A stretch of DNA of 64,000 bases from a virus (IMGVR_UViG_3300029442_000001:62001-126000), one strand, 5' to 3'; positions 6,176 through 24,419 are shown, counted from the first letter of the stretch. Numbers and translations are program-made. Notes: generated by a model not told the origin, from the letters alone.

Positions 6176-6257
6176 AAAACGTCGTTTAAGCAATTTTTAG
6201 AGCAGATCTAGTGCTATGACCCCAACTCGCCCCTAATAATGCGTTGTACGACGTTTT
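6176..6257. repeat. 82-bp inverted-repeat element, copy 1
   Basis: One end is AAAACGTCGTTTAAGCAATT, the other the related inverted sequence AATGCGTTGTACGACGTTTT. It lies between the end of one gene (6300) and the promoter of the next (6139-6168), followed by TGTTGAAAACAAA. Copies of equal length sit at 19078, 20719 and 24338. Confidence 0.8.
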
Positions 6258-6299
6258 ACTTAGATTTACGTGTTGAAAACAAAAGACTTATGCCAGCAA

Positions 6300-6662
6300 T
6301 TAATACTCTTCAACAGTTATCTTCCCAGTTTTCAAATCGTCTTCGATCATTTTGTCAACCCGCAGTTTGATTTCGTCAACCGTTTCTGGAATCTTTTTAT
6401 TCATCAATTTTGCGCACTCTAATTTATGCCAGGCTTTGAATTCTTTTGTTTCAGCTAGGTGTTTCAATGCATCCTGTCGATTTTTTGTATTGCTACGATG
6501 TTCTCGACCTTCTCCAACTGCACCAGATTTAGAATGGATTAATCTCACTCCACTGTTTGAGGTGTCCTTGCCTCCGCCGCCACAACCACCAACTGAAAAT
6601 GTTTGCATTTCCAAATCCTTCATGGTGATTGAAAATAATAATCGTTTTGTTTTAGTACTCAT
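6300..6662 (-). CDS. Release-factor-like protein lacking GGQ
   Basis: 120 residues. Residues about 38-70 (GVRLIHSKSGAVGEGREHRS, then NTKNRQDAL) match the RF-1/ArfB domain core. Where release factors carry the catalytic GGQ this protein reads GGCGGGGKD (25-33): the catalytic glutamine is missing. The C-terminal half is helical and acidic. RF-domain proteins hydrolyse peptidyl-tRNA at the ribosome. Without Gln this one may bind ribosomes without release activity, or act on another bond. The glycine-rich stretch is clear in the bases and does not look like a frameshift. Confidence 0.75.
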   Translation of the reverse strand: MSTKTKRLLFSITMKDLEMQTFSVGGCGGGGKDTSNSGVRLIHSKSGAVGEGREHRSNTKNRQDALKHLAETKEFKAWHKLECAKLMNKKIPETVDEIKLRVDKMIEDDLKTGKITVEEY

Positions 6663-7071
6663 AAAATTTAAGTCCTCTTAATGCCAAATATACTAATTGT
6701 CCTTGATCTAACTTGGTCGATTCGTCAACTATTGTCCATTCATTTATTACAACGTCTTCGAGATTTGAATCTGTGAAATCAGCTCCACGCAAATCGGCGC
6801 CACACAAATTAGCACCAGTTAAATTTGCATTTCGTATATATGAATAACTTAAATCCGAATAACTTAAATTTGAGTTATTAAAACTTGTTCCATGTAAATC
6901 TGAAGTAGATAAATCTGATTCACTTAAATTTGTATATCCAAAATCTGATCCATACATATTTAAATTAGATAACTTTGCACGAGGCAAAATCAAATTACGC
7001 AAGTCTTCTTCAACTAGATTATTGCCTCGAGTTGTATGTAATAATGTACCACTTTTTGATTTAATCTTCAT
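6652..7071 (-). CDS. Pentapeptide-repeat protein, 139 aa
   Basis: From about residue 25 to 105 the sequ­ence runs in A(D/N)LxX repeats (LSYSDLSYSYIRNANLTGAN), the right-handed quadrilateral beta-helix fold. The C-terminus WTIVDESTKLDQGQLVYLALRGLK is shared with the two pentapeptide proteins at 19.2-19.9 kb. Some family members mimic DNA and inhibit gyrase; that is only a possibility here. Confidence 0.85.
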   Translation of the reverse strand: MKIKSKSGTLLHTTRGNNLVEEDLRNLILPRAKLSNLNMYGSDFGYTNLSESDLSTSDLHGTSFNNSNLSYSDLSYSYIRNANLTGANLCGADLRGADFTDSNLEDVVINEWTIVDESTKLDQGQLVYLALRGLKFYEY

Positions 7072-7349
7072 ACAAATCTTTAAGATATTTTAAAACCCAT
7101 ATCAAAAATTGTTCTTCTGTTAAGATAAAATACCATTCAATTTCAACAAAATCTGTATATGGAAAACACTCAACATCAAATGTTTTCTTAATCCATTTTT
7201 TAGCATCATTGAAATATTTTTTTAATAGTAGGCCGAAGTAATATTGCTGTATTTTTATCAGTTGATGTGATAATATAATTACCATCAATTAATTTACCAT
7301 ATATCCAAATTTTGGTAATTTTTACATCTGTTGGATTATGTGGAAGCAT
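7061..7349 (-). CDS. Hypothetical protein split by a frameshift
   Basis: The frame from ATG 7347-7349 (MLPHNPTDVKITKIWIYGKL) stops at 7206. A second frame continues to 7061 (WIKKTFDVECFPYTDFVEIE). They join smoothly if the A7 run at 7217-7223 (minus strand) is shortened by one base, giving about 95 residues. The start overlaps the end of the 50-aa CxC protein. A sequencing indel, a true mutation or +1 frameshifting would all fit. Function unknown. Confidence 0.5.
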
Positions 7350-7488
7350 TTTTTAAAAGATCAACAGGAACATCACAAATCCACGATTTTCCACTACTCA
7401 AACTATAAAATGAAACTGGTTTATTCTTTAAACAATAATCGCAAGTAAACTTGCCTACTTCGCATTTGCATTCAATACTTGGTGACAT
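7336..7488 (-). CDS. Small cysteine-rich protein, 50 aa
   Basis: TAGGAGAATGAA precedes ATG 7486-7488. MSPSIECKCEVGKFTCDYCL shows CxC and CxxC pairs, suggesting a small zinc ribbon. Tight overlap with the next gene. Role unknown. Confidence 0.6.
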   Translation of the reverse strand: MSPSIECKCEVGKFTCDYCLKNKPVSFYSLSSGKSWICDVPVDLLKNAST

Positions 7489-7502
7489 TTCATTCTCCTA
7501 AT

Positions 7503-7898
7503 CTACAATCTAGCAAGCCCTTCTTCTGAACTGTATATAACTTTCTTAATGCCAAATTCCAATATAGCACGTTGACATCCACTACATGGCTTCGCCATTC
7601 CCCAACCAGTATCTTTTACTCTGCAAACATAGAGAGACGATTTTTTGAGTTGTGACAAACTCAGATGCCTCATAGCATTTTTTATTGCAGAAATTTCTGC
7701 ATGTAGATGAATTTTATGTTCGTCAGCTGCATACTTTTTTTGGAATGGCGAAGTTTTATAGGAAGGAACGCCATATGAAACTATTCGATTTTTATATACA
7801 ATAATTGCAGCCAGTCTATAATTTGCAACTTTTTCAGACGCTATAGCGACTTCTGTCAAATTATTAAACATACGTTTCATTCGCGTATCTGTATCCAT
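7503..7898 (-). CDS. Cytidine/deoxycytidylate deaminase family protein
   Basis: 131 residues. HAE at 66-68 and PCSGC at 104-108 give the zinc ligands and catalytic glutamate of the CDA/dCMP deaminase fold. It is shorter than T4 Cd (about 190 aa). Deamination of dCMP to dUMP for dTTP supply is the usual phage role; free cytidine or a tRNA base are alternatives. Own early promoter at 7904-7933. Confidence 0.8.
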   Translation of the reverse strand: MDTDTRMKRMFNNLTEVAIASEKVANYRLAAIIVYKNRIVSYGVPSYKTSPFQKKYAADEHKIHLHAEISAIKNAMRHLSLSQLKKSSLYVCRVKDTGWGMAKPCSGCQRAILEFGIKKVIYSSEEGLARL

Positions 7899-7903
7899 AA
7901 CTA

Positions 7904-10854: not shown

Positions 10855-10929
10855 GGGAGCATAATTGGGTTCGAACCAATGACCTTCGGTTTCACAGGCC
10901 GACGTTCTTCCAACTGAACTATATGCTCC
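10855..10929 (-). tRNA. tRNA-His (GTG)
   Basis: Acceptor GGAGCAT/ATGCTCC, anticodon loop CTGTGAA, T-arm ATTGG-TTCGAAC-CCAAT. The last anticodon-stem pair is a C-A mismatch. CCA is not encoded. Confidence 0.85.
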
Positions 10930-11134
10930 GTAATAAAATTTCTTCATTCAAAATATTGTGAGAATGAAGATTAAAAGCAGCATCACTAGCATCTTCTCCA
11001 CTTTCGAAATATTTTTCAATATCAGAATTATATCTAGTCATCAACTCATTTCGAAGTTGTGGAGGAAGTTTCCAATAATCTTCAAGCAAATTATCAATTT
11101 CTTCCCAATATCGAACTCTATTAGCAATACTCAT
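10919..11134 (-). CDS. Hypothetical protein, 71 aa
   Basis: MSIANRVRYWEEIDNLLEDY start, acidic and helical. It sits inside the tRNA block and its end overlaps the 5' end of tRNA-His by 11 bases. No family recognised. Confidence 0.5.
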   Translation of the reverse strand: MSIANRVRYWEEIDNLLEDYWKLPPQLRNELMTRYNSDIEKYFESGEDASDAAFNLHSHNILNEEILLRSI

Positions 11135-11144
11135 TTAATATATA

Positions 11145-11220
11145 GTAGGCCTAAATGGATTTGAACCATTGATCCCTGCCTTATCAAGACAGTGCTTTAA
11201 CCAACTAAGCTATAGACCTA
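11145..11220 (-). tRNA. tRNA-Ile (GAT)
   Basis: Anticodon loop TTGATAA, stem CTGTC/GGCAG, T-arm AATGG-TTCAAAT-CCATT, acceptor TAGGTCT/AGGCCTA. CCA not encoded. Confidence 0.9.
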
Positions 11221-11230
11221 AAATTTTTTG

Positions 11231-11305
11231 CCTTCGGGGATGGATTCGAACCACCGACGCCAGCTGTTTCAAAGCTGCGCTCTACCAAACTGAGCTACCT
11301 CGAAG
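11231..11305 (-). tRNA. tRNA-Phe (GAA)
   Basis: Anticodon loop TTGAAAC, stem CAGCT/AGCTG, acceptor CTTCGAG/CCCGAAG with one A-C mismatch. CCA not encoded. Confidence 0.88.
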
Positions 11306-11316
11306 AAAACTTATAG

Positions 11317-11390
11317 TCCTGGGAGATTGATTTGAACAATCGACTTCTATCTTATGAGGATAGCACTCTACCAAGCTGAGCTATCCCAGG
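11317..11390 (-). tRNA. tRNA-Met (CAT)
   Basis: Anticodon loop CTCATAA, stem CTATC/GATAG, acceptor CCTGGGA/TCCCAGG with A73. C1-G72 is paired, so not a typical initiator. Lysidine-modified Ile(CAT) cannot be excluded. CCA not encoded. Confidence 0.85.
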
Positions 11391-11401
11391 AAAAATTGTG
11401 G

Positions 11402-11488
11402 TGATAGGTTAGAGATTCGAACTCTAAAGGGCCCTAAGGACCGCTAGTTTTACAGACTAGTGCGACCAACCGTATTCGCGTACCTATC
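11402..11488 (-). tRNA. tRNA-Tyr (GTA)
   Basis: Anticodon loop CTGTAAA, stem CTAGT/ACTAG, long variable arm as expected for bacterial Tyr, acceptor GATAGGT/ACCTATC, A73. CCA is encoded just outside the given span. Confidence 0.92.
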
Positions 11489-11496
11489 AAAACTGG

Positions 11497-11569
11497 AGCC
11501 GGAGAAAGGACTTGAACCTTCAATATCCGCATTACAGGTGCGGCGCTTCGCCAATTAAGCTACCCCGGC
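11497..11569 (-). tRNA. tRNA-Thr (TGT) with unusual C33
   Basis: Stem CCGCA/TGCGG closes the loop CCTGTAA, giving anticodon TGT and C at position 33, where T is almost universal. Acceptor GCCGGGG/CTCCGGC, T73, CCA encoded. Confidence 0.82.
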
Positions 11570-11692
11570 AAAAACTTTATATTAATCTTTTAACATATAA
11601 TTATATTTCAACTACATACAATATAAAAATTATACGAATTTCTCATAAAGAATATCTTTCAAAAGAAAAATTACCGATTATAATATCTAATC
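11570..11692. other. AT-rich spacer in the tRNA block
   Basis: No gene or stable structure seen; several TATAAT-like strings occur by composition. Confidence 0.3.
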
Positions 11693-11695
11693 TGG

Positions 11696-11780
11696 AGCGG
11701 CATACGTGAATTGAACACGTTTTTAATCTTTTCAGAAGCTGGGGTGGAAACCCAGTGATCACCCAATGACCCAATGCCGC
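11696..11780 (-). tRNA. tRNA-Gly (TCC) with long variable arm
   Basis: Acceptor GCGGCAT/ATGCCGC, T73 and encoded CCA (Gly identity features), D-stem GGTC/GATC, anticodon loop TTTCCAC in stem CTGGG/CCCAG, T-arm ACGTG-TTCAATT-CACGT. The variable region is 18 bases with a small hairpin; Gly tRNAs normally have 4-5. Confidence 0.8.
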
Positions 11781-11791
11781 TCAAATTTTGG

Positions 11792-11862
11792 CGGGACCGG
11801 AGAGAATCAAACTCTCGACTTATGGGAGACAACCAAATGGTTTATCACTAACCTACGGTCCC
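11792..11862 (-). tRNA. tRNA-Asp (GTC)
   Basis: Acceptor GGGACCG/CGGTCCC, G73 and encoded CCA (G73 is an Asp identity base), anticodon loop TTGTCTC. The anticodon stem has a T-T mismatch and position 37 is T, so the isotype is somewhat less certain. Confidence 0.72.
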
Positions 11863-11873
11863 AAACTTATTAC

Positions 11874-12149
11874 TTATTTATTAAATCCGTTTAACTGCTT
11901 ATACTTTTCTAACAATATCAATACATCTTCTTTAGTTTGATTAGCACATGCTAAATCAACTAAATGTTGAATAATTTTTACAGCACCTATATGACTTAAA
12001 TCATATTCTTGAACTGCATCAACATATTCCCAATCTGAAGAACCTGCAGCATCTAGCTGGCTATGTTTAACTCTAACTTTAGCTGAAACTGTCATAACTT
12101 CTAAGTCAGAATTTCCCATTACATCACATACTCTTTTAATAATCTGCAT
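11874..12149 (-). CDS. Hypothetical protein inside the tRNA block, 91 aa
   Basis: Start placed at ATG 12149 (MQIIKRVCDVMG); the longer frame begins with GTG inside the CCA end of tRNA-Trp. Mixed alpha/beta with EVMTVSAKVRVKHSQLD. No family recognised. Confidence 0.6.
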   Translation of the reverse strand: MQIIKRVCDVMGNSDLEVMTVSAKVRVKHSQLDAAGSSDWEYVDAVQEYDLSHIGAVKIIQHLVDLACANQTKEDVLILLEKYKQLNGFNK

Positions 12150-12158
12150 ATACTTTGG

Positions 12159-12243
12159 CACCCCCTGTCAGATTCGAACTGACTTGATTTTTACATCACT
12201 GGGTTTGGAGTCCAGCGCGGCACACCATCTCCGCCGAAAGGGC
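12159..12243 (-). tRNA. tRNA-Trp (CCA) with long variable arm
   Basis: Anticodon loop CTCCAAA, D-stem GCGG/CCGC, T-arm GTCAG-TTCGAAT-CTGAC, acceptor GCCCTTT/AGGGGGT with wobble pairs, G73, encoded CCA. The variable region is about 15 bases and forms TGAT/ATCA, atypical for Trp. Confidence 0.78.
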
Positions 12244-12258
12244 GATAATAAACTTTAG

Positions 12259-12331
12259 CTCTCGGAGCAGGACTCGAACCTGAAACATCCTGGTTAACAG
12301 CCAGGCGCTCTACCAATTGAGCTATCCGAGA
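12259..12331 (-). tRNA. tRNA-Asn (GTT)
   Basis: Acceptor TCTCGGA/TCCGAGA, G73, anticodon loop CTGTTAA in stem CCTGG/CCAGG, T-arm CAGG-TTCGAGT-CCTG. CCA not encoded. Confidence 0.93.
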
Positions 12332-12494
12332 ATAGCAAACTTTAATGTTGTCCCAGCAAGTCGATATATTTCTATACCACAACAACCCGGCCTTCGCGAA
12401 GTTGACGGCTTTTCAGCATCTGATCTCAAAGCCGAAGCTCTGACGTTTTTCCAGGTTCTTCACTCTGGTCCACGCGGATCAACAAAATTTTTAG
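12332..12494. other. GC-richer structured spacer between tRNA-Asn and tRNA-Pro
   Basis: Around half G+C, clearly above the flanks. Holds the palindrome CTTCGCGAAG (12392-12401), a hairpin CGGCTTT/AAAGCCG (12406-12412, 12428-12434) and CCAG/CTGG further on. No tRNA fold fits and no coding frame is convincing. It would be transcribed with the tRNA operon; possible structured RNA. Confidence 0.4.
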
Positions 12495-12568
12495 TCGGAG
12501 AAGCAGGATTCGGACCTGCGATATTCTGTTCCCAAAACAGACGGATTACCAGACTTTCCCATTCTCCG
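12495..12568 (-). tRNA. tRNA-Pro (TGG)
   Basis: Acceptor CGGAGAA/TTCTCCG with A73 (C1-G72 as in bacterial Pro), anticodon loop TTTGGGA in stem TCTGT/ACAGA. The T-loop reads TCCGAAT, so T55 is replaced by C. CCA not encoded. Confidence 0.87.
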
Positions 12569-12603
12569 ATAACATTATTATTTATCTTTTCTATTTCTCT
12601 TTA

Positions 12604-12632
12604 ATTATAGCAGTTTTTTCATTTCCTGTCAA
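12604..12632 (-). promoter_or_regulatory. Early promoter for the first tRNA operon
   Basis: TTGACA, 17 bases, TATAAT with extended TGC, 36 bases upstream of tRNA-Pro. GATAAATA also occurs at 12579-12586, closer to the tRNA. Confidence 0.75.
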
Positions 12633-12795
12633 ATATTTCTTCCTCAATTAAAATCATTTCATATTTTCTCTTTATCACAGTTAGTGGAGGACGTTCAATC
12701 AATGTCAGACCGTCGCAATTACATTCAAATGAACACAGGCCTGATTCACCAATAACAGAATTACATTTTATACAATAATAATTAGTTACGAACAA
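12619..12795 (-). CDS. Small cysteine-rich protein (TTG start), 58 aa
   Basis: Best start is TTG 12793-12795, inside the exonuclease gene's end. Cysteine pairs YYCIKCNS and CSFECNC suggest a zinc ribbon; the tail is basic then acidic. Its end overlaps the tRNA operon promoter. No ATG is available, so moderate support. Confidence 0.45.
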   Translation of the reverse strand: MFVTNYYCIKCNSVIGESGLCSFECNCDGLTLIERPPLTVIKRKYEMILIEEEIFDRK

Positions 12796-13339
12796 ATTTT
12801 TGTACTCCTAAAGTTCTCAAAACCTTCTGTACTGCAATTAATTGCCTAAAACAGTCGTCCATTGCATCATGCGTTACTTTTGGCTGCTTTACTGATACCA
12901 AATCGATAATAGTTCGCGAATCTCTAACCTGCCAATATGGCCAAGGTCGAGGCATATTATATTGTGCATAAGCATGTTCGAGCATTGAGATATCAAAAGT
13001 TGTTCCTTGTGCCCAAATTCGATCAGCTTTATTCCAAATAAATTTATGCAGTTGACTCAACGCTTCTTGCAACGAAACACGTACCAAACCTTCACCAAAA
13101 ATACTATCTTGGACTGCTTGATCTTGTTGGCTCCACCATTTAATAGTATCTGGATTAATAGTCCTTGTTGGTTGAGATTCAATATCAATTAATAGATGTA
13201 GTTGGGTAAGATCATATAGCTTTACACTCGAATTTTCATAATCCTGAAATGGATCAAAACATACCGCTGCCATTGATACGATAGTTGCATTAACACTCGT
13301 ATCTAATGTTTCTAAATCTATCATTATTGAATTGCTCAT
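12782..13339 (-). CDS. 3'-5' exonuclease, DEDDh type
   Basis: 185 residues. DLETLDT at the start (Exo I), WAQGTTFDISMLE (about 109-121, Exo II) and HDAMDDC (Exo III) are the DEDDh motifs. Similar in size and layout to T4 DexA and to RNase-T-like exonucleases. Likely degrades host DNA or trims 3' ends; tRNA 3' trimming is possible given the adjacent tRNA operon (inference). Confidence 0.85.
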   Translation of the reverse strand: MSNSIMIDLETLDTSVNATIVSMAAVCFDPFQDYENSSVKLYDLTQLHLLIDIESQPTRTINPDTIKWWSQQDQAVQDSIFGEGLVRVSLQEALSQLHKFIWNKADRIWAQGTTFDISMLEHAYAQYNMPRPWPYWQVRDSRTIIDLVSVKQPKVTHDAMDDCFRQLIAVQKVLRTLGVQKFVRN

Positions 13340-13345
13340 GTATTA

Positions 13346-13374
13346 AGTATAGCAGTTCATTATAGAATTGTCAA
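13346..13374 (-). promoter_or_regulatory. Early promoter for the exonuclease gene
   Basis: TTGACA, 17 bases, TATACT with extended TGC. Confidence 0.72.
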
Positions 13375-13383
13375 ACTTAAATT

Positions 13384-13391
13384 GATAAATA
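13384..13391 (+). promoter_or_regulatory. Late-promoter octamer, plus strand
   Basis: GATAAATA, eight bases before ATG 13400; no ribosome-binding site lies between. Confidence 0.4.
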
Positions 13392-13399
13392 CTTGTACT

Positions 13400-13654
13400 A
13401 TGGCAGCCAACGGAATTTCAACATTATCAACGAAAGAACTTAAACAGATTGCGAAACTGAATCTAGCACAAACCAAACGACAAGCTGGTGGTAATACTTC
13501 TCAACCATTTTATCGACCACTTAATACGTACGATATTAATTTATTACCTACGCACTATATTGGAGATACAGTTGTAAATAATGTCCACGCAGGTGATCCA
13601 ACTCCAGGGAGGCCCTGGACTAATAATTTATCACTACAGAATATGATAAATTAA
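13400..13654 (+). CDS. Small conserved phage protein, 84 aa
   Basis: MAANGISTLSTKELKQIAKL start and GRPWTNNLSLQNMIN end. It resembles small 'MAANGISTL' proteins found beside virion genes of cyanophage-type myoviruses (from memory). One of few plus-strand genes, with a late octamer upstream; a virion-related role is inferred. Confidence 0.65.
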   Translation: MAANGISTLSTKELKQIAKLNLAQTKRQAGGNTSQPFYRPLNTYDINLLPTHYIGDTVVNNVHAGDPTPGRPWTNNLSLQNMIN

Positions 13655-13685
13655 ATAATGTTTATCAAAAGGAAAAAAGGAAAAT

Positions 13686-14081
13686 ATGAAACTAATTTTA
13701 TTTCTAGCGCTGGCAGGCCTGGCTCACGGACAGACGCTCAACAGTGGATCATCGGTTCTGAATGATGCTGTGAACTCGAAAGCGCCGATTGCGAACCCGA
13801 CGTTTACGGGCAACGTAACGATTGGGGCTACAGTACCCAGTAACGCACCTCCGGCAAGCCTCTCTGTAAGCGGGAACGTGTATGCCGGGACACTCCCAGT
13901 CGCAACCTTCCGCAGCGGCTGGGGCGCGCCAACGGGCAACACCGACGCGCAACTCTACCTGGATCAAGCCAGCGGAACGATTTATTTCCAGTCCAGCGGG
14001 TTGTGGGCTCCGATGTCTACTGCGACACCCGTTTACGGCTGGTATGTGGACCCTCACTGGCGCACCCGCCTGGGCTGCTAA
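13686..14081 (+). CDS. Secreted/fibre-like protein in a GC-rich island
   Basis: 131 residues: signal peptide MKLILFLALAGLAHGQ, then a region with APIANPTFTGNVTIG, a motif very common in phage tail-fibre stalks. After TAA 14079-14081 the same frame is open for another 38 codons to 14198, so the gene may be truncated. G+C is far above the phage average, with AAAAGGAAAAAAGGAAAAT upstream. Looks recently acquired; a signal peptide is unexpected on a fibre. Confidence 0.65.
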   Translation: MKLILFLALAGLAHGQTLNSGSSVLNDAVNSKAPIANPTFTGNVTIGATVPSNAPPASLSVSGNVYAGTLPVATFRSGWGAPTGNTDAQLYLDQASGTIYFQSSGLWAPMSTATPVYGWYVDPHWRTRLGC

Positions 14082-14232
14082 CAGACTTTACAAGGGTTCA
14101 ATCTCCCGCGCTTCCGCTGGCATTTGGGACTGCTGGTACACGGGATCGACGCCAGCAATAACTACCGGATTGGCTATACGACGATCACTGGGCTATAGGT
14201 AACGTAAATACGCGAAAGCGTTACGAGGAATT

Positions 14233-14382
14233 ATGAAACTTCTAATCTTCTTCTTGATCGCATCGACGGCATGGGCGCAGACCATTGCCTCAACGTCAAT
14301 CGGAACCTCATGCACGTTGGCGCAGGAGGCCACAGCAAATCCGACGCAGCAGACCGTCCAGTGGACCATCCCGGCGACGTAG
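14233..14382 (+). CDS. Short secreted protein, 49 aa
   Basis: Signal peptide MKLLIFFLIASTAWAQ followed by a 33-residue Thr/Ala/Gln-rich tail. TTACGAGGAATT precedes the ATG. Same GC-rich island as the gene before it; both look like bacterial exported proteins. Confidence 0.5.
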   Translation: MKLLIFFLIASTAWAQTIASTSIGTSCTLAQEATANPTQQTVQWTIPAT

Positions 14383-15938: not shown

Positions 15939-15942
15939 AATT

Positions 15943-16332
15943 TTATGCAAGTTTGAGTGGTTCAATCCAAGCTGCTAGATCGCCTTCTAGAGTTGCTGGC
16001 CATTCTTCTTCTTTAATTAGACAATAAATATTATCTGGAAGAATAATTCCAACAGCAGTCAATGCACCATTTAGTGACATTTCGTCTTCTCTAAATGCAG
16101 CCCAACAATAATTATTATTAACATCTGTTTTGCAGAATGTTTCAAACTGAGCTAGTTGAGCACTATTCCCTCCATTCAAGATGATAATAGTTTTGTCATC
16201 AGTTGCCCATTGCTTGAAATGCTTATGTTTCTTCATCGCCATCTCAGAAATAACATGAGCAGACTGAAGACCACATTGAAGTTGAGACAAATAATAATTT
16301 GTCAAAATGTAAGCTCTGTAATTTTTATTCAT
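15943..16332 (-). CDS. Possible Pth2-like protein, 129 aa
   Basis: YILTNYYLSQLQCGLQSAHV (about 8-27), then TIIILNGGNSAQLAQFE and ALTAVGIILPDNIY. The order of a first strand, a 'GxQxAH' helix and a late strand resembles the Pth2 peptidyl-tRNA hydrolase fold. The match is weak and rests on pattern recall. It sits just downstream of the second tRNA operon. Otherwise unknown. Confidence 0.5.
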   Translation of the reverse strand: MNKNYRAYILTNYYLSQLQCGLQSAHVISEMAMKKHKHFKQWATDDKTIIILNGGNSAQLAQFETFCKTDVNNNYCWAAFREDEMSLNGALTAVGIILPDNIYCLIKEEEWPATLEGDLAAWIEPLKLA

Positions 16333-16342
16333 ATAAATTTAG

Positions 16343-16416
16343 TACCCAAAATAGGACTTGAACCTACAACATCTTGCTTGTAAAGCAAGCGCTCTAACCA
16401 ATTGAGCTATTCGGGT
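16343..16416 (-). tRNA. tRNA-Val (TAC)
   Basis: Acceptor ACCCGAA/TTTGGGT, A73, anticodon loop TTTACAA in stem CTTGC/GCAAG. CCA not encoded. Confidence 0.93.
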
Positions 16417-16424
16417 AATTTAGT

Positions 16425-16503
16425 AGCCCCGGGAGAAGTTGAATCTCATACCGTCCGCCCAACTTTAAGGATCAGTTTAGAAGACTGATGTCGGGTTCGG
16501 GGC
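16425..16503 (-). tRNA. tRNA-Arg-like (TCT), no D-arm
   Basis: Acceptor GCCCCGA/CCGGGGC (6 pairs plus a mismatch), anticodon stem ATCAGT/ACTGAT (6 pairs) closing CTTCTAA (anticodon TCT), T-arm GAGA-TTCAACT-TCTC. Only eight bases separate acceptor and anticodon stem, too few for a D-arm, and the variable region is about 22 bases. CCCGAC on the 5' side can pair with GTTGGG in that region. An open frame of the upstream broken gene runs 32 bases into it. Atypical tRNA or tRNA mimic. Confidence 0.5.
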
Positions 16504-16641
16504 CATAATTTCTAAAACGATTTAACTGTGATTCTTTGCCATTTCTTAAAACTATTCCTAAAGAATGTAATATTTTTGCAAAATTAACAGGACTTGGATG
16601 ATTATATTTTTTTGCTAATTCACTAAGTGAAAACCCATCAT
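16472..16641 (-). pseudogene. HTH-like small gene broken near its start
   Basis: A frame reading FSLSELAKKYNHPSPVNFAK, then a HSLGIVLRNG helix, is open to TGA 16472-16474 but has no start. ATG ATG GGT TTT (from 16641, after AAGGTGATA) is one base out of frame; adding one T to the T4 run joins them. The pattern resembles a short helix-turn-helix DNA-binding unit. Its end overlaps the Arg-like tRNA. Confidence 0.4.
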
Positions 16642-16664
16642 TATCACCTTGTTTTTAAATTTAG

Positions 16665-16737
16665 TTGGCCCAGACGGAATTGAACCGTCAACATCTTCAT
16701 TAAAAGTGAAGCACTCTGCCAATTGAGTTATGGGCCA
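16665..16737 (-). tRNA. tRNA-Lys (TTT)
   Basis: Acceptor TGGCCCA/TGGGCCA, A73, anticodon loop CTTTTAA in stem CTTCA/TGAAG. CCA not encoded. Confidence 0.93.
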
Positions 16738-16749
16738 ATATACTAATGG

Positions 16750-16821
16750 TAGGGAGTATTGGATTCGAACCAATAATGTCGGAGCCAAAGTCCAAAGGTT
16801 TGCCAATTAGCCTAACTCCCT
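16750..16821 (-). tRNA. tRNA-Gln (TTG)
   Basis: Acceptor AGGGAGT/ACTCCCT, A73, encoded CCA, anticodon loop CTTTGGC in stem TTGGA/TCCGA. Confidence 0.9.
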
Positions 16822-16843
16822 ATTTATTATTCTATACTATTTA

Positions 16844-16872
16844 AGTATAGCAGTATTTATCTAATAAGTCAA
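16844..16872 (-). promoter_or_regulatory. Early promoter for the second tRNA operon
   Basis: TTGACT, 17 bases, TATACT, 23 bases upstream of tRNA-Gln. Confidence 0.72.
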
Positions 16873-17250
16873 TCTTAAAATTTCTTTATCTTTCTTTTCT
16901 GCATACCGTATTGTTGCCCACGTTCCACTTCTAATTTCTTCTATGTTTGTTCTTGGTGCAGCAATTAATACATCAGTGCAATCAACAATGACATGATTTC
17001 GCTTTATATAATCAAGTGGTTTTAAAATTTTATCATTTTGGTCAAAATATCCACGCTTTGACATTATAATTGGTGGATGACAAACTACATAATACCCAAG
17101 TTCTTTTGCAATTAATGCTGCTTGGATATCTGAACCAATACAATCACCATGATGAAATTCACCATCTTTGAAAAAAGTCAAAATATTAAATATCTCTTCA
17201 ATTTGAAGATCTGACATTCCTTTTTGTGTTCCAGTGAACCCAATTTTCAT
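16861..17250 (-). CDS. SLOG-family nucleotide-binding protein
   Basis: 129 residues with the SLOG/LOG-type Rossmann pattern: GFTGTQKGM at the start, FHHGDCIGSD (about 32-41), CHPP, RNHVIVDCTDVLIAAP and RSGTWATIRYA. SLOG domains bind nucleotides or nucleotide-derived signals and occur in NAD+- and second-messenger-based defence systems as well as in DprA and LOG proteins. On a phage it might sense or sequester such a signal (inference). Confidence 0.75.
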   Translation of the reverse strand: MKIGFTGTQKGMSDLQIEEIFNILTFFKDGEFHHGDCIGSDIQAALIAKELGYYVVCHPPIIMSKRGYFDQNDKILKPLDYIKRNHVIVDCTDVLIAAPRTNIEEIRSGTWATIRYAEKKDKEILRLTY

Positions 17251-17254
17251 TAAT

Positions 17255-17446
17255 TTATGACCACTTTGCTACTTGAATTGTGTTTAACGTGATTAGATCT
17301 TTGAAATCTTTGAATGCTTTTGTAATTCGCTTATCATAAAAATATAAAGTGTCTCCATTTTCAAAGAAAAATTGAGCATCTTTTTTACCAACGCGCTCAA
17401 TTTTGAACAACTTAATATTCAACTTTTTATATTCTTTAGCAGTCAT
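17255..17446 (-). CDS. Hypothetical protein, 63 aa
   Basis: MTAKEYKKLNIKLFKIERVG start; basic, mixed alpha/beta, with AQFFFENGDTLYFYDKR. Four bases before the SLOG gene, so probably co-transcribed. Not recognised. Confidence 0.55.
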   Translation of the reverse strand: MTAKEYKKLNIKLFKIERVGKKDAQFFFENGDTLYFYDKRITKAFKDFKDLITLNTIQVAKWS

Positions 17447-17454
17447 TTAAAAAA

Positions 17455-18228
17455 TCAACCACCCACTGATTCTAAAATTATTTGATCTGTAATGATACTT
17501 TGACAAAGATCATTTATGGTATCAAAATCTGGATATTCTGGTAGCATCTTGAGATTAGCTGCTTTTTGAGCATTATCTAATTCATTATCTACTAATAATA
17601 TCCAATCACTTAGAGAAAGTCCGCCATTTCGAATATAAAGCAATTCATCAGCATCATTTCTAAAAATATTCATCTTTCCACTTAGGAAGAATTCAGTTGC
17701 CATCCTTAAAATTCGAATAGTATGCATGGCATATTTCACATCATACCCATATTTTTCAACTAATAGCTTTCGTTTTGTACCTAGTTTTCCAGTAATGCAA
17801 TTAACAACAGCATTTCTTTGACTTTGTGAATATCCAATAAGTGTGTTGTATGCTTGTTGACTTTCAAATGCTTGTCGATTTTTGATTAAACTTTTTCCTT
17901 CGGGAGTAATAATAGTATATTCATGATCTCTCAAATATAGCAAAGGAATAACATTTGGATTAAACTTAATACACAATTTCAAAAATTTTCGTAGTTCAAA
18001 AATAGTTGATTCTGCATTGATAGTTTCCTTTTTGTCTAGGACAAAAGTATCTTCACCAGCAACAAGTCCAGTATAATACGAATTGGGTTTTAGAATAATA
18101 CCCAAGAAGTCTACATCAGAATCTTCTGTGGCTGCTCCGTAAGATTGTGAACCAACTTGTCCAACAAGGATATACTTTCCCGACTCCTTAGGAAGGTTAA
18201 AATTTACATTATATTCTTCTGTGGTCAT
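17455..18228 (-). CDS. Nucleotidyltransferase, RlaP/COG3541-like
   Basis: 257 residues. VGQVGSQSYGAATEDSDVDF (about 22-41) is the GSxxxG...DxD motif of DNA-polymerase-beta-type nucleotidyltransferases. The rest is helical with KLLVEKYGYDVKYAMHTIRI, typical of the COG3541 group, some of which accompany RNA-repair ligases. Possibly modifies or repairs tRNA ends cut by host anticodon nucleases (inference). Start overlaps the upstream stop (ATGA). Confidence 0.75.
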   Translation of the reverse strand: MTTEEYNVNFNLPKESGKYILVGQVGSQSYGAATEDSDVDFLGIILKPNSYYTGLVAGEDTFVLDKKETINAESTIFELRKFLKLCIKFNPNVIPLLYLRDHEYTIITPEGKSLIKNRQAFESQQAYNTLIGYSQSQRNAVVNCITGKLGTKRKLLVEKYGYDVKYAMHTIRILRMATEFFLSGKMNIFRNDADELLYIRNGGLSLSDWILLVDNELDNAQKAANLKMLPEYPDFDTINDLCQSIITDQIILESVGG

Positions 18229-18299
18229 AATTTTTCTACTTTAACTACTATAGTTTCAGGCTGCCCACCACAGTATAGTTCAATTTTTATTTTGACCAT
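18225..18299 (-). CDS. 24-residue peptide
   Basis: MVKIKIELYCGGQPETIVVK, coupled on both sides: TGATG with the gene before it, ATGA with the next. Looks like one beta hairpin. Supported by the overlaps only. Confidence 0.4.
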   Translation of the reverse strand: MVKIKIELYCGGQPETIVVKVEKL

Positions 18300-18643
18300 C
18301 ACATACTCCAATATGTTTCTGAGGACGGATCACAACATAGAGGTGTATTGCTTTTAATGGTTACATTTTTTCCAGACATCAAATTTTTTACAATCTTGTT
18401 TTTTACAATTTTTGAATCATAATATTCAGCTAAAGCCACAGCATACGGGGCAATTGCATATTCTGTTTCTCCATTGACAACGTGTTCGCAGTATTCACAA
18501 TCAACAAAGCCATGTTGGACACGATGAATCCTTTCGTAACCAACTCTGCGATTAGCAACTCTCATTGACTTTCGAGCAGAACCTTGTGAATTATGTGTTG
18601 ATACGTGCATAGTAGATTTTATGTGGTACACAACAAAAGACAT
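18299..18643 (-). CDS. Hypothetical protein, 114 aa
   Basis: Basic N-terminal half (ARKSMRVANRRVGYERIHRV) and cysteines DCEYCEHV that may bind zinc. One base after the upstream gene. No family recognised. Confidence 0.6.
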   Translation of the reverse strand: MSFVVYHIKSTMHVSTHNSQGSARKSMRVANRRVGYERIHRVQHGFVDCEYCEHVVNGETEYAIAPYAVALAEYYDSKIVKNKIVKNLMSGKNVTIKSNTPLCCDPSSETYWSM

Positions 18644-18644
18644 A

Positions 18645-19022
18645 TTATTTCCTCAATCCTTCAAGCATCGCAGTCAACGTTGCATGTTCTTCGTCACTCA
18701 ACCATCTTGCGCTATAATCGTTCTGCTCAAGATATAGTGTAACGACCTTTGAAAAGTCGGACCATTTACTTCTTACTTCGTTCATTTCATTTCGTTCCTG
18801 GAGTCGCTCTCGTAATGTTTCGGGTTTATACAAGTATGTTGCACTGTATGGGGACTTTCGTTCGGTACCATGCTTATCGTATGAGGTTCCATTTTCTAAC
18901 ATAATATGCCCAAACTTGTTGATCTTAACAATGTTGCTAAAACCATAGTTCATGAGCGTACTGTTATAATACCTTGCAAACCCAACTTCATCTCCAACTT
19001 TGAGTGCTCCAATATCAAACAT
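18645..19022 (-). CDS. Hypothetical protein, 125 aa
   Basis: First part looks like a small beta-barrel (LKVGDEVGFARYYNSTLMNY, then MLENGTSYDKHGTERK), followed by helices. First gene of an operon behind the early promoter at 19042-19070. Not recognised. Confidence 0.6.
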   Translation of the reverse strand: MFDIGALKVGDEVGFARYYNSTLMNYGFSNIVKINKFGHIMLENGTSYDKHGTERKSPYSATYLYKPETLRERLQERNEMNEVRSKWSDFSKVVTLYLEQNDYSARWLSDEEHATLTAMLEGLRK

Positions 19023-19041
19023 TCTTTTCTCCTACTCTTTA

Positions 19042-19070
19042 AGTATAGCAATTTAGGTAAATGATGTCAA
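19042..19070 (-). promoter_or_regulatory. Early promoter for the 18.6-19.0 kb genes
   Basis: TTGACA, 17 bases, TATACT with extended TGC; the 82-bp element follows eight bases beyond the -35 box. Confidence 0.75.
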
Positions 19071-19077
19071 CCAAAAT

Positions 19078-19159
19078 AAAACGTCGTTTAAGCAATTCTT
19101 AGGGCACACTTGGTACAATTACCCTAACTCTGGCTTTAAAATGCGTTATACGGCGTTTT
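19078..19159. repeat. 82-bp inverted-repeat element, copy 2
   Basis: Starts AAAACGTCGTTTAAGCAATT, ends AATGCGTTATACGGCGTTTT. Same orientation as copy 1. TGTTGAAAACAAATGACTTA lies between it and the stop of the pentapeptide gene at 19190. Confidence 0.8.
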
Positions 19160-19189
19160 GTGCCAATTTAGGTGTTGAAAACAAATGAC

Positions 19190-19627
19190 TTAATTTCCAT
19201 ATCTAATACCTTTCATAATTAAATATGTTAGCTGTTCTGGATCTAAATTAGTAGTTGAATTAAATCTTGTATATCGATCTATTTTCACATTATCTAACTT
19301 TGCACCACGTAAATCTGCTCCACTTAAATCTGCACCACACAACTCAGCCATATTTAAATCTGCGCCACACAACTCAGCCATATTTAAATCTGCGCCACAC
19401 AAATCAGCCATATTTAAATTTGCACCACTTAAATCTGCGCCACACAAATCAGCCATATTTAAATTTGCGCCACTTAAATCTGCGCCAATTAATATTGACC
19501 TAAATAAATTTGCTCCACTTAAATCAGAATCGTATAAATCTGCTCCACTTAAATCAGAATCACGAAGATCTGCGTGACGAAGGTCAGCTCCCCATAATTT
19601 TTCACCAACTCTAGTTTTAATTTCCAT
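19190..19627 (-). CDS. Pentapeptide-repeat protein, 145 aa
   Basis: Almost the whole chain is A(D/N)LxX repeats ([20 protein letters not shown]), including near-perfect internal copies of CGADLNMA. The C-terminus [20 protein letters not shown] is shared with its neighbour. Expected fold: right-handed square beta-helix. It overlaps its paralog by 11 bases, clearly a tandem duplication. Gyrase-mimic activity is only a possibility. Confidence 0.88.
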
Positions 19628-19943
19628 ATTTAACCCCTTTGAGTATCAGGTAGGTAAGCTGTTCTGGATCTAAATTAGTAGTTGAATTAATTCTTGTATA
19701 TCGATCTACTGTCACATTTTCTAAATTTGCTCCACTTAAATCAGAATCGTATAAATCTGCTCCACTTAAATCAGAATCACGCAAATCTGCTCCACTTAAT
19801 ATTGACCTAAATAAATTTACTCCACGTAAATTTACTCCACGTAGATCTGCATCTCTTAAATTAGCCCAAGATAAATCTGATCCATCTAATGTGAAACGTC
19901 CTGATGTTAATAATATTTTGCCTAATTTAGATTTAATTTGCAT
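19617..19943 (-). CDS. Pentapeptide-repeat protein, 108 aa
   Basis: Shorter paralog of the 145-aa protein, same C-terminal tail, repeats from about residue 20 ([20 protein letters not shown]). The N-terminus [12 protein letters not shown] matches the 6.7-kb paralog (MKIKSKSGTLLH). Confidence 0.88.
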
Positions 19944-19952
19944 GAAGATAAA

Positions 19953-20654
19953 TTACTTGATAACTTTAATTCTGGTAAGCTTGGTCACATTGTCATCACA
20001 ATGTTGTTTGATTTGAGCAGACAAAAATTTCTTTGTGCCAGTTCCCAAATCCTCTTTAAAGAAGAAAAAGAAAATATCGTTGCCCATCTTAGCATTGATA
20101 ATCCACGTCTGCCATTTCATGCTAAAAGTAGATTTCAAAATCTCAAACTCACCCATAATCTTTGAGCCAACAGTTCCAACATGAGCGCTGTTTTTTACAA
20201 GTTCGTCAATGTTTTCTTTATTAAGGTCGCGGGCGTAACAACTAGGCAGTGATGAAACTACCGCCAAATCATATGTGTCTACATCAGTAAACATTTCTTT
20301 AGATGCGACGCGCAACGTAGTGGACAAGAAATCATTTAACTGTCCGCCAACCAACTTAAACAACAGGCCCTGATAATGAGTGCGAATTGCTTTGCCTTGT
20401 TCGATATGCTCAGGAGTCATTGTCTTGTTCATAAGAATATTGCGCACTTCTTCTTTGTTTGGACGATTTACAATTTTGTAATTACCATCTATCGGGTGGC
20501 CATACGTTGGTTCCTTAATGTAACCCTTGTTTAGCTCTTGGGCAGCAACAGCCGCACCAAATACTTCATCGGGTGTAAATTCTTTTGATGGAGTTCGCTT
20601 GGGGTAAGATCCTTTTCCGTACGGTTTACGATATCTTGTGGAATTATAATACAT
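19953..20654 (-). CDS. Hypothetical protein, 233 aa
   Basis: Basic tyrosine-rich N-terminus (MYYNSTRYRKPYGKGSYPKR), a helical middle and a C-terminal region with NDIFFFFFKEDLGTGTK. The early promoter at 20682-20711 fits this start. A nucleic-acid-binding role would fit the charge; no family recognised. Confidence 0.6.
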   Translation of the reverse strand: MYYNSTRYRKPYGKGSYPKRTPSKEFTPDEVFGAAVAAQELNKGYIKEPTYGHPIDGNYKIVNRPNKEEVRNILMNKTMTPEHIEQGKAIRTHYQGLLFKLVGGQLNDFLSTTLRVASKEMFTDVDTYDLAVVSSLPSCYARDLNKENIDELVKNSAHVGTVGSKIMGEFEILKSTFSMKWQTWIINAKMGNDIFFFFFKEDLGTGTKKFLSAQIKQHCDDNVTKLTRIKVIK

Positions 20655-20681
20655 AATGTCTCCTGTTTCTGCTACTCTTTA

Positions 20682-20711
20682 AGTATAGCAGTTTGATTAA
20701 AGAAATGTCAA
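20682..20711 (-). promoter_or_regulatory. Early promoter for the 233-aa gene
   Basis: TTGACA, 18 bases, TATACT with extended TGC; the 82-bp element follows eight bases beyond the -35 box. Confidence 0.75.
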
Positions 20712-20718
20712 CCAAAAT

Positions 20719-20800
20719 AAAACGTCGTTTAAGCAATTGTTAAGGGCTACTTGGGGCTAATGTACCAAATATGCTCTAAAAATTGCTTAAACGACGTTTT
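20719..20800. repeat. 82-bp inverted-repeat element, copy 3 (perfect ends)
   Basis: The two 20-base ends, AAAACGTCGTTTAAGCAATT and AATTGCTTAAACGACGTTTT, are perfect inverted repeats. The middle holds GGGGCTAATGTAC, also in copy 4. TGTTGAAAATAAAGGACTTA separates it from the gene stop at 20831. Confidence 0.85.
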
Positions 20801-20830
20801 GGGAGGAAATGACTGTTGAAAATAAAGGAC

Positions 20831-21442
20831 TTACTTTATTAATCTGGGTCGACCACGCGGTTTCTTGACTTCAACATTAACGCCAGCTTCTAGTTCTAGC
20901 CGTTTAGCTTCAGCAAGCAACACGTTTGCTTCGTTTTTCATCCTTGCGGCTTGTTCCAACAGGTTTTGAGAAATATTACTTTCAGTTAAAACTTCTGCCA
21001 CTGTTTCAATTTGATGCTTTGGCTTTTTGGAATTTATTAAATTGGCTTGAACAGTTTGTTTGTCAATTTCCGACATACGTTTAACTGCACCTTCACCAGC
21101 TTCCATTTCTTTAAGAATTTTATTTAGCTCGTCTAACCTAACATTGTTTTTCATATCAGGTGTGACAATAATTTGACCAGTCTGAACTTTTTTGATCAAA
21201 CCTTCTTTGTGGAGTGTTGTTAAAATATTTCGACCATCTGGTAACAAATTACGAAATAATGCTTCAGCAAATTCTTTTGCTTGTTGTCCAACATCTGATT
21301 CTAATACCTTCATAACAGCATCGTGGTATGTTCTTGGTAATAAATCACTATAACAGACCAGACACATATGCTCTTCATCTGGTACTGTTTTATACATAAT
21401 AACTATTTTTTTATCGCCGTGTCGTCCGATATGTTTTGTCAT
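20831..21442 (-). CDS. Hypothetical protein with AT-hook-like tail, 203 aa
   Basis: Start placed at ATG 21442 (MTKHIGRHGDKKIVIMYKTV), two codons outside the end of the upstream gene. An N-terminal globular part with CLVC is followed by long helices (EQAARMKNEANVLLAEAKRL) and a C-terminal KKPRGRPRLIK, an AT-hook-type DNA minor-groove motif. DNA-associated role inferred. Confidence 0.65.
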   Translation of the reverse strand: MTKHIGRHGDKKIVIMYKTVPDEEHMCLVCYSDLLPRTYHDAVMKVLESDVGQQAKEFAEALFRNLLPDGRNILTTLHKEGLIKKVQTGQIIVTPDMKNNVRLDELNKILKEMEAGEGAVKRMSEIDKQTVQANLINSKKPKHQIETVAEVLTESNISQNLLEQAARMKNEANVLLAEAKRLELEAGVNVEVKKPRGRPRLIK

Positions 21443-21443
21443 A

Positions 21444-21632
21444 TTATCCTTTTGGTTGTGGTTCAGTTTGAGGTGGCATTGAAGATGTAATGAAGCTAGA
21501 TAATTTATCATACAATTTTCCAACTACGGTAAGTTCTTCAGCCCTAAATGCTCCACGTACTGAACAAGTAGATATAATCTCTTGAAGCATTTGTAGATCA
21601 TTTAATGTGATAGGAGTTTCAATGTTTTCCAT
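21444..21632 (-). CDS. Hypothetical protein, 62 aa
   Basis: MENIETPITLNDLQMLQEII; helical, Pro/Gln tail. CATAAATA sits exactly five bases before ATG 21632, the spacing seen for the late octamer elsewhere. One base before the AT-hook gene region. Confidence 0.6.
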   Translation of the reverse strand: MENIETPITLNDLQMLQEIISTCSVRGAFRAEELTVVGKLYDKLSSFITSSMPPQTEPQPKG

Positions 21633-21640
21633 AATAATAT

Positions 21641-21922
21641 TTATGGCGTATTAATTTCGCCTAAAATTTTCGAAAACACCAAAGACAAAAATGTTATGTC
21701 GCTATCCATTTCAAATCCCAAAAAAACTTTATCTTTTTTAAACTCATAAAAAAATCTACCACAGGTATTTGATAATATTTTATTAATCAATAACATTTCA
21801 AACGGAAAATTACCATCAAAGAAAATATCTGAATGCGAACTTATATTGAATTGTACAGTAGTAAAATGGTTTGGTAATCGATTTACAATTCGAGAATGTG
21901 TTATTTCTTCTTGGATTGCCAT
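21641..21922 (-). CDS. Hypothetical protein, 93 aa
   Basis: Start at ATG 21922 (MAIQEEITHSRIVNRLPNHF), inside the end of the upstream gene. Alternating hydrophobic strands. Not recognised. Confidence 0.55.
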   Translation of the reverse strand: MAIQEEITHSRIVNRLPNHFTTVQFNISSHSDIFFDGNFPFEMLLINKILSNTCGRFFYEFKKDKVFLGFEMDSDITFLSLVFSKILGEINTP

Positions 21923-22107
21923 TTTTTCAAAATCAAATATGAAGCTCCACCACAATTGCAAACTTTCTCTGTTAGTTCAACATGAGTCTCTGCAATAAAT
22001 TCAATCATATCGCTAACACAATCAGGATCACCATCTAAAAATGTCCAGATTTTATCTGCAACTGGATCGGGCAATGTCCTTAAAAATTCATATAGTTCAA
22101 TTGGCAT
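21901..22107 (-). CDS. Hypothetical protein, 68 aa
   Basis: MPIELYEFLRTLPDPVADKI; acidic helical domain, one CNC pair, lysine-rich end. Overlaps the next gene by 22 bases. Not recognised. Confidence 0.55.
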   Translation of the reverse strand: MPIELYEFLRTLPDPVADKIWTFLDGDPDCVSDMIEFIAETHVELTEKVCNCGGASYLILKKWQSKKK

Positions 22108-22151
22108 ATTATTTATTTCCTGTATATCAGACCACTCTTCATATAATTCAG

Positions 22152-22225
22152 AGCCACGAGTCGGATTTGAACCGACGAATACGAGTTTTGCAGACTCGCG
22201 CCTTACCAGACTTGGCCATCGTGGC
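22152..22225 (-). tRNA. tRNA-Cys (GCA)
   Basis: Acceptor GCCACGA/TCGTGGC with T73 (Cys identity), anticodon loop CTGCAAA in stem CGAGT/ACTCG, T-arm GTCGG-TTCAAAT-CCGAC. Isolated from the other tRNAs. CCA not encoded. Confidence 0.93.
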
Positions 22226-22786: not shown

Positions 22787-22787
22787 A

Positions 22788-22876: not shown

Positions 22877-22889
22877 ATATTTCCTCTCA

Positions 22890-22926
22890 AATTAGTTGAG
22901 CACCCTAATTGAGTGCTCAACTAATT
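22890..22926 (-). terminator. Hairpin after the VWA gene
   Basis: Perfect 14-base arms AATTAGTTGAGCAC and GTGCTCAACTAATT around a nine-base loop, directly after the stop at 22932. The T-run is weak. Confidence 0.65.
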
Positions 22927-22931
22927 ATTAT

Positions 22932-24248
22932 TTATTTTGAATCGTACTCTACAGTAATTCCATGTGGAGCAACAAACCCAGGATTGCTATGGACAACGAA
23001 AACTGTTTCACAATATTCTTCTGGTCCAAAGCCATCAAAGGAATAACCATCTGTCATCATAATGAAACGCTTAGGCTCAACACCATTTGCAATCATCCAA
23101 TCCCAATTGCATTGAAAACTAGTGCCGCCACCGCCTTGTGGTTGATAATCACCAATGTCATCTAAATTGTCACTAGTGAATACTTGTGGATTATAAACCT
23201 GGGTATCAAAGCACCAAATGTGGAGTTTATATGATGTGAACTGAGTCATAATGCCTTTGACTTCACCCAAAAAATCCCTAATCATTGATTCAGAAATTGA
23301 TCCGCTTAAATCAAGCGCAACAGCCACATCAACTTCTTGTTCAACTGTCATACCAGGAAGAATAGCATCAACGTCCCAACCTTTTCTTGAAAGGACCATA
23401 AAGCTATAATCGCTCAATATTGTTGAATTCAAACTCTGTTGCAAAATTTCGCGCCAGTTCATTTTCGGTTCAGTGAGATCTTTAATCAAACGCTGAACAC
23501 CAAGCGGAACATCACCTGCCTTGCATTGCTTGGCAGCATTCAACACTGCGTCGCGAATTTCATTTTTGATTTCTTTTAGTTCTTCTTTCGACAAGTAAGG
23601 CCGACCACTGCCGTCCTTTTTTCCATCACCTTTGTCATTGCCATCAGCATCGCTGTCGCCTGAACCTTCATCTTCGCCCTTCATGTGTTCGTCTAAAAGC
23701 TGTCCAAACAAATCTGAAATGTCAATCTTTTGTGCATTTTTATAAAGATCGTCGTACACTTCTTCTGCGCACATACCAACATACTTTTTGTCCAGCAAGC
23801 ACGGAACCGAAGTGACCAACTCACCAATTTTGTTGTCAACCAAATCTTGATTCACAACATAATCAGCAGCCACGTTGAATAACCGATGGTCGCGAAAATC
23901 AACACGTCCCATATGATCGTAGATGCAATGTAGGATTTCATGACCAAAAAGGAATTCAACTTCAGCTTGCCGAAGCTTCATGATAAATTCGTGATTGTAA
24001 TAAAAATTTCGCCCGTCCGTTGCTGCGGTACTGCACCACGCATCAGCGGGTACCATCTTCAACCTGCATACTACGTTTCCAAAAAATGGCTTGTTGAACA
24101 ACAACGAAACCCTTGACGAAATAAGCCTGTCTTTAACTTGACTTGCAATGTTAGCTGGAATGGGCTTATCTGTAAGCTTTGCTTCTTGGTAAGCCTTGCC
24201 AGCTTTAGTTGTTTTTCCTACTGCGGTCGTTTTATTTGTTGTGCTCAT
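22932..24248 (-). CDS. Metallopeptidase-like / VWA protein
   Basis: 438 residues. HEILH at 103-107 in a helix (HExxH zinc motif), a metallopeptidase-like N-terminal half, an acidic Asp/Gly-rich linker (about 190-215), then a VWA-like domain with DLSGS (about 313) and MMTDG. Layout of the DUF2201/VWA-like proteins that work with MoxR ATPases. The MoxR partner lies upstream at 24507. Such pairs remodel or load metals and cofactors into other proteins; the phage target is unknown. Confidence 0.82.
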   Translation of the reverse strand: MSTTNKTTAVGKTTKAGKAYQEAKLTDKPIPANIASQVKDRLISSRVSLLFNKPFFGNVVCRLKMVPADAWCSTAATDGRNFYYNHEFIMKLRQAEVEFLFGHEILHCIYDHMGRVDFRDHRLFNVAADYVVNQDLVDNKIGELVTSVPCLLDKKYVGMCAEEVYDDLYKNAQKIDISDLFGQLLDEHMKGEDEGSGDSDADGNDKGDGKKDGSGRPYLSKEELKEIKNEIRDAVLNAAKQCKAGDVPLGVQRLIKDLTEPKMNWREILQQSLNSTILSDYSFMVLSRKGWDVDAILPGMTVEQEVDVAVALDLSGSISESMIRDFLGEVKGIMTQFTSYKLHIWCFDTQVYNPQVFTSDNLDDIGDYQPQGGGGTSFQCNWDWMIANGVEPKRFIMMTDGYSFDGFGPEEYCETVFVVHSNPGFVAPHGITVEYDSK

Positions 24249-24267
24249 TATGTTCCCTTACTTAACT

Positions 24268-24297
24268 AGTATAGCAAACCCACCCCACAAACGTCAA
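24268..24297 (-). promoter_or_regulatory. Early promoter for the VWA gene
   Basis: TTGACG, 18 bases, TATACT with extended TGC. Confidence 0.68.
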
Positions 24298-24337
24298 CCT
24301 GTTCTAAACTCTTTGTTTTCAACAGCAAATTTGCTGT

Positions 24338-24419
24338 AAAACGCCGTATAATGCATTCTTTGCCCGTACCTGGGGCTAATGTACTACTTGGGCCCAAAGA
24401 ATTGCTTAAACGACGTCTG
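24338..24419. repeat. 82-bp inverted-repeat element, copy 4 (inverted)
   Basis: Starts AAAACGCCGTATAATGCATT and ends with AATTGCTTAAACGACGT (24400-24416): opposite orientation to copies 1 and 2. Preceded by the 16-base palindrome ACAGCAAATTTGCTGT (24322-24337) and inverted TTTGTTTTCAACA. A separate terminator lies on its other side, so the element is not simply the terminator. Confidence 0.8.

Follow-up and report, generated by a model that had tools for sequence, protein, structure and literature searches.

The window analysed here, a stretch of 64,000 nucleotides, comes from a 171,695-bp virus record of the same phage as the 242,080-bp record IMGVR_UViG_3300022555_000003 (G001), in which it corresponds to positions 131552-195551. 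The phage is a distant jumbo phage. Its split family-B DNA polymerase shares 43-44% identity with the enzymes of Sinorhizobium phage Phosso and Pseudomonas phage PA5oct. Genes recognized in the window include a nicotinamide phosphoribosyltransferase gene (2560-4095, minus strand; PHROG 448, E 4e-161), a gene of NAD+ salvage that possibly counters NAD-depleting host defence, and a gene for a small RF-1 domain protein (PF00472; 6300-6662, minus strand) that may be a peptidyl-tRNA hydrolase acting on its own or a factor of ribosome rescue; this second gene precedes one of the repeat units described below (c137). Fourteen tRNA genes lie within 10855-22225, one of which, for Cys, falls in the interval from unit c152 to unit c155. 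Diverged gene copies form tandem families at 28400-29470 and 60700-63980 (direct repeats D4, D11, and D12-D19). Pentapeptide-repeat genes are numerous and are repeatedly found beside the units (6652-7071 and 19190-19943 in the window; loci L001, L006, and L025), and some of them are broken by stops, such as the gene before c120 (L001).

Distribution and anatomy of the units

Four 82-bp inverted-repeat copies had been predicted in the window, all of which were confirmed with their length and coordinates; the phage, however, contains ten (Table 1). Copy 2 (c150) with its flanks was used as the query, followed by a consensus, and the query with flanks recovered the family at E values of 1e-75 to 1e-11, far beyond chance. 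An internal 22-mer of the element is expected 0.00 times in shuffled sequence, and the arm motif AACGNCGTWT is confined to the elements within the 212 kb examined. The proposed search of the genome and related phages yielded ten dispersed copies in G001, each in a composite cassette of approximately 150 bases, and three further copies (r385, r14601, and g6), all at orthologous sites, in a relative represented by two collinear contigs (IMGVR 3300045993_001005 and _000941) of about 70-80% DNA identity. Three more contigs represent the same phage at practically 100% identity. No copy of the element was found in the bacterial genomes, Rfam, or more distant phages searched. A host or bacterial origin was rejected, as none of 24 genome-collection matches resembled the element over its full length; the 12 inspected were mostly coding-like sequence. 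A match to an RNA model in locus L081 proved to be an ordinary terminator.

Table 1. Element copies in G001 and unit features in the window
Feature	Window position	Strand	Element start in G001	Description
c43 element			43107	Ortholog g6 in the relative
c50 element			50798	
c51 element			51413	
c92 element			92386	
c120 element			120177	
c137 early promoter	6139..6168	-		TTGACA-18-TATACT, directly after element
c137 element	6176..6257	-	137727	82-bp quasi-palindrome, arms A/B; ortholog r14601 in the relative
c137 unit, left part	6258..6290	-		TAAGTCTTTTGTTTTCA motif and linker, begins 33 bp before element
c150 early promoter	19042..19070	-		TTGACA-17-TATACT, for gene 18645-19022
c150 element	19078..19159	-	150629	82 bp, arms A/B; ortholog r385 in the relative
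c150 unit, left part	19160..19192	-		TAA is the stop of pentapeptide-repeat gene 19190-19627
c152 early promoter	20682..20711	-		TTGACA-18-TATACT, for gene 19953-20654
c152 element	20719..20800	.	152270	Arms B/B, near-perfect palindrome; interior on +, flank and promoter on -
c152 unit, left part	20801..20833	-		TAA is the stop of ORF 20831-21523
Early promoter near c155	24268..24297	-		TTGACG-18-TATACT, gene 22932-24248; c155 upstream of it
c155 unit, left part	24305..24337	+		TAAACTCTTTGTTTTCA
c155 element	24338..24419	+	155889	82 bp; entire unit reversed with respect to the genes around it; no own promoter
Conventional terminator, separate	24435..24468	-		14-bp stem, behind ATPase gene 24507-25625
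c231 element			231116	

The elements are parts of a composite unit, in which a TAAGTCNTTTGTTTTCA motif 33 bp before the element is followed by the 82-bp quasi-palindrome and then by an early promoter. In 11 of 13 copies the motif, or a close variant of it, starts at -33, and in six tandem copies (c43, c120, c150, c152, r385, and g6) the preceding gene uses the TAA of the motif as its stop codon. A promoter of the form TTGAC...TATA[AC]T follows the element in 12 of 13 copies (11 at the same place; c155 is without one), with the -35 box at position 89-91 from the element start in 11 of these 12; in c51, 10 bp have been lost from the side facing the promoter. The element itself measures 81 bp in c231 and r385. 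The flank TGTTGAAAACAAA noted in the original prediction is real and lies at a fixed distance, but it is reversed relative to the element in c50 and c51. Likewise, placement between the end of one gene and the promoter of the next applies to seven of the ten phage copies, but not to c92 and c231, which sit between two divergent promoters, nor to the inverted c155. Each of the ten phage elements directly precedes one or more early-type promoters. Within the stretches examined, 12 of 52 early promoter matches have an element within 130 bp upstream and 40 have none, which indicates that such promoters do not require the element. Tested neighbours of the units are mainly small ORFs without a Pfam match or pentapeptide-repeat genes.

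The TAAGTCNTTTGTTTTCA motif is not restricted to this phage and is carried by at least 119 viral stretches (loci L208-L326 among them); some occurrences form the palindrome GTAAGTCCTTTG-NNNN-CAACGACTTAC, and some are near promoters or tRNA genes. A set of 199 Planctomycetota genomes contained it seven times (against 0 for the control pattern) and a set of 398 Pseudomonadota genomes not at all, the phylum names being taken from the titles of the centre genomes. We did not find the motif printed in the literature searched.

Arms, interior, and folding of the element

Two versions of the outer arms exist: A is AAAACGYCGTATAACGCA and B is AAAACGTCGTTTAAGCA. Usually the left arm is A and the right arm B, and they pair with one mismatch and one bulge. 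The right arm of r14601 is of the A type, and c152 (B/B) and g6 (A/A) are both nearly perfect palindromes with folding z of about -8 to -11. On one strand or both, the majority of copies fold better than their shuffled versions, and the arms are at least partly paired in every element, most weakly in c231. The covariance check proposed for the fold gave no signal, the covariation of the arms not exceeding that of column shuffles. Four pairs are invariant, and most other pairs vary on one side only or break; together with the covariation result, this indicates that the arms are conserved as sequence. Absence of both covariation and further copies had been named as grounds for abandoning the family; the first was found, in that covariation is not significant, yet many further copies exist.

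While the arms are nearly invariant, the interior is variable, and its core is only partly conserved, as had been described, with TGGGG and TGTAC retained. The common ends reported for the four copies do not extend to copy 4 (24338-24419), which ends in ...ACGACGTCTG rather than ...ACGACGTTTT. This copy is indeed inverted together with its flank. The original prediction missed, however, that copy 3 (20719-20800, c152) has an inverted interior between a flank and a promoter that are not inverted. The c152 interior agrees with the other copies at 0.62 when inverted and 0.47 when uninverted (core, 0.80 versus 0.46), and its core reads GGGGCTAATGTAC on the plus strand while its flank and promoter read on the minus strand, the pattern that an in-place flip of the sequence enclosed by the inverted arms would leave.

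Strict terminator scans do not call the hairpin on either strand, and its loop part exceeds 40 nt. A T-rich stretch (TTTTATTTTGG) follows the hairpin and is absent in c51. The separate terminator predicted at 24.4 kb is present beside c155 (Table 1). No Rfam family matched the element at threshold. A short ORF (KTSYNA....SWG..TR.ALRIA*), apparent in the element frame of c120 and c50, was rejected because most copies have stops or frameshifts and the variation shows no clear excess at third codon positions. An attenuator-like switch pairing the flank GTCNTTT with the right arm AAACGAC was also rejected, since by inspection the flank varies where the arm is constant.

Copying and gene exchange at the units

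The c92 and c120 units are separated by 27.8 kb and share a 127-bp block, from the motif start to the -35 box, with 97% identity. Outside this block identity drops at once (27% on the left and 39% on the right), with the -10 region still alike. Because DNA shared between the related species differs by about 25%, the copying is recent. Neighbouring genes have been exchanged right at the upstream border of the unit in two of the three orthologous sites that make up the comparison. At c137/r14601 the break falls at the TAA of the unit, the relative having approximately 830 bp of extra genes between the stop of the RF-1 gene and the unit; downstream of the promoter, the two species again have different genes. 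At c43/g6 the pentapeptide-repeat gene of G001 is missing in the relative, where the TAA of the unit directly ends the preceding gene. The c150/r385 site is unchanged.

Paralogous elements are up to 98% identical and orthologous ones 62-76%, and these identities suggest concerted evolution or gene conversion among the units, with a non-significant tree test (likelihood test on 82 columns; plain orthology not rejected, AU p 0.15). A RecA-family protein is encoded in the 242-kb record, and among the families searched there no tyrosine recombinase/integrase, Y1 transposase, or IS110 transposase was detected. Block copying, exchange at unit borders, the RecA homologue, and the lack of a tested transposase favour homologous recombination over transposition. 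In the proposed search for loci lacking the element, an IMG/VR scan found no relatives of the genes beside c120, c152, and c231.

Interpretation and comparison with known systems

We consider it probable that the units are cassettes resembling promoter-early stem-loops (PeSLs), in which a stem-loop and an early promoter provide insulation and homologous shuffling of genes. Each unit begins with the TAA-containing motif, which often supplies the stop codon of the preceding gene; the hairpin-forming quasi-palindrome comes next, and a strong early promoter of the sigma70 type, serving the following gene, closes the unit. The hairpin RNA and the T-rich stretch may reduce read-through from the preceding gene, so that each acquired gene would keep its own early expression. 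As many similar units are present in plastic early-gene regions, RecA-like machinery might recombine between them, and the genes in between would be swapped, inserted, or deleted; alternatively, one unit would be overwritten by another. Among the four options originally offered, an insulator fits best, although it has to be widened to a stem-loop/early-promoter cassette at gene-exchange borders. A replication site is unsupported because the ten dispersed copies occur in both orientations and are all tied to promoters.

A simple terminator cassette would not explain all features of the unit. The hairpin is not a compact intrinsic terminator, considering its long loop part and the lack of the T-rich stretch in c51; between the divergent promoters of c92 and c231 there is no upstream sense transcript to stop; and a pure terminator would not need sequence-conserved arms without covariation. 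Strict arm conservation and divergent-promoter placement go beyond what termination alone explains and keep alive the alternative of an upstream regulatory site, in which the arms (AAACGNCGTTT/AAACGYCGTAT) would bind a phage or host protein acting on adjacent or divergent promoters and the fixed 82-bp length would place two sites about 69 bp apart. Near-invariant arms around a variable interior, a promoter downstream of every copy including the divergent pairs, the rigid distance to the -35 box, and the restriction of AACGNCGTWT to the elements are consistent with such a site. We nevertheless regard it as rather unlikely, since most early-type promoter matches (40 of 52) have no element, c155 is reversed and farther from its promoter, and border exchange with block copying accounts for the sequence identity without a binding protein. 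It is less probable again that a phage protein recognizes the paired palindromic arms and both controls the early promoters and promotes in-place inversion or exchange at the hairpin; if true, the units would form a dedicated gene-swapping platform instead of offering passive homology.

The small RNA of the original prediction survives in a broader form, as a structured or processed RNA from the preceding gene whose hairpin, with its conserved UGGGG...UGUAC loop, would be an RNase III-type signal, a stability element, or a small RNA. Such a role would suit the better-than-shuffled folding of most copies (c152 and g6 strongest) and the block-wise arm switching that leaves A/A and B/B copies almost perfectly paired, but it is improbable given the covariation and Rfam results, the inverted interior of c152, and the fact that no gene is transcribed into c92 and c231 from upstream. 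We give even less credence to a MITE-like or REP/RAYT-like mobile element with terminal inverted repeats, which the fixed length, the conserved inverted ends, and the dispersal of copies in both orientations would otherwise recommend. This reading is largely refuted, as the unit exceeds its inverted repeats, conservation continuing into the flank and promoter at fixed distances; the 242-kb record has no tyrosine recombinase, Y1, or IS110 transposase; the positions are orthologous in the relative; and no empty site with a target duplication was seen.

Among known repeats, REP/BIME/REPIN palindromes and MITEs share with the elements a dispersed intergenic location, inverted repeats, and a fixed size; the phage units differ in containing a promoter, in keeping orthologous positions, and in that no Y1 (RAYT-type) transposase was found. 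Integron attC sites are imperfect inverted repeats of 60-140 bp that follow gene stop codons and contain bulged bases. The elements are likewise imperfect inverted repeats after gene stops, but each unit has its own promoter and the attC core GTTRRRY is absent from the ends; identity with attC was rejected, there being no tyrosine recombinase in the 242-kb record.

In T4-type phages, PeSLs are composite cassettes of a stem-loop and an early promoter through which genes are shuffled in hyperplastic regions, and terminator activity is one of their defining features. They have reportedly been recognized in RB49/phi1, T4/PST, and KVP40/nt-1 by Arbiol et al. 2010 and Comeau et al. 2014. PMC4503421 describes the PeSLs of T4-type phages and cites the primary work. 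In the RB49 genome, which we inspected, many intergenic gaps contain a TTGACA promoter and a compact hairpin, and in some of them, for example at 159695-159807 and 60611-60727, gene end, terminator hairpin, T run, and TTGACA promoter follow one another. The phage units have the same order. Like PeSLs, they combine a stem-loop with a sigma70-like early promoter between small early genes in many similar copies per genome, and exchange borders coincide with the cassettes at two of three orthologous sites. RB49 hairpins, however, are compact, with GC-rich stems and short loops, and some overlap the promoter itself, whereas in the phage units the hairpin is 82 bp long, its large interior is conserved in part, its arms come in two versions, and it follows a conserved motif; nor do the scans call this hairpin as an intrinsic terminator. 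Judged by sequence, the units appear PeSL-like rather than proven members; as a variant, they have a far longer hairpin and lack a canonical compact terminator. The orthologous sites, the fresh 127-bp block copy, and the inverted interior make exchange visible, so that the way in which large phages acquire new early genes and express them immediately becomes testable. The idea of cassette-mediated gene shuffling, developed for T4-type phages that infect enterobacteria and vibrios, would be extended to an uncultured lineage of jumbo phages, here with a markedly longer and sequence-conserved stem-loop.
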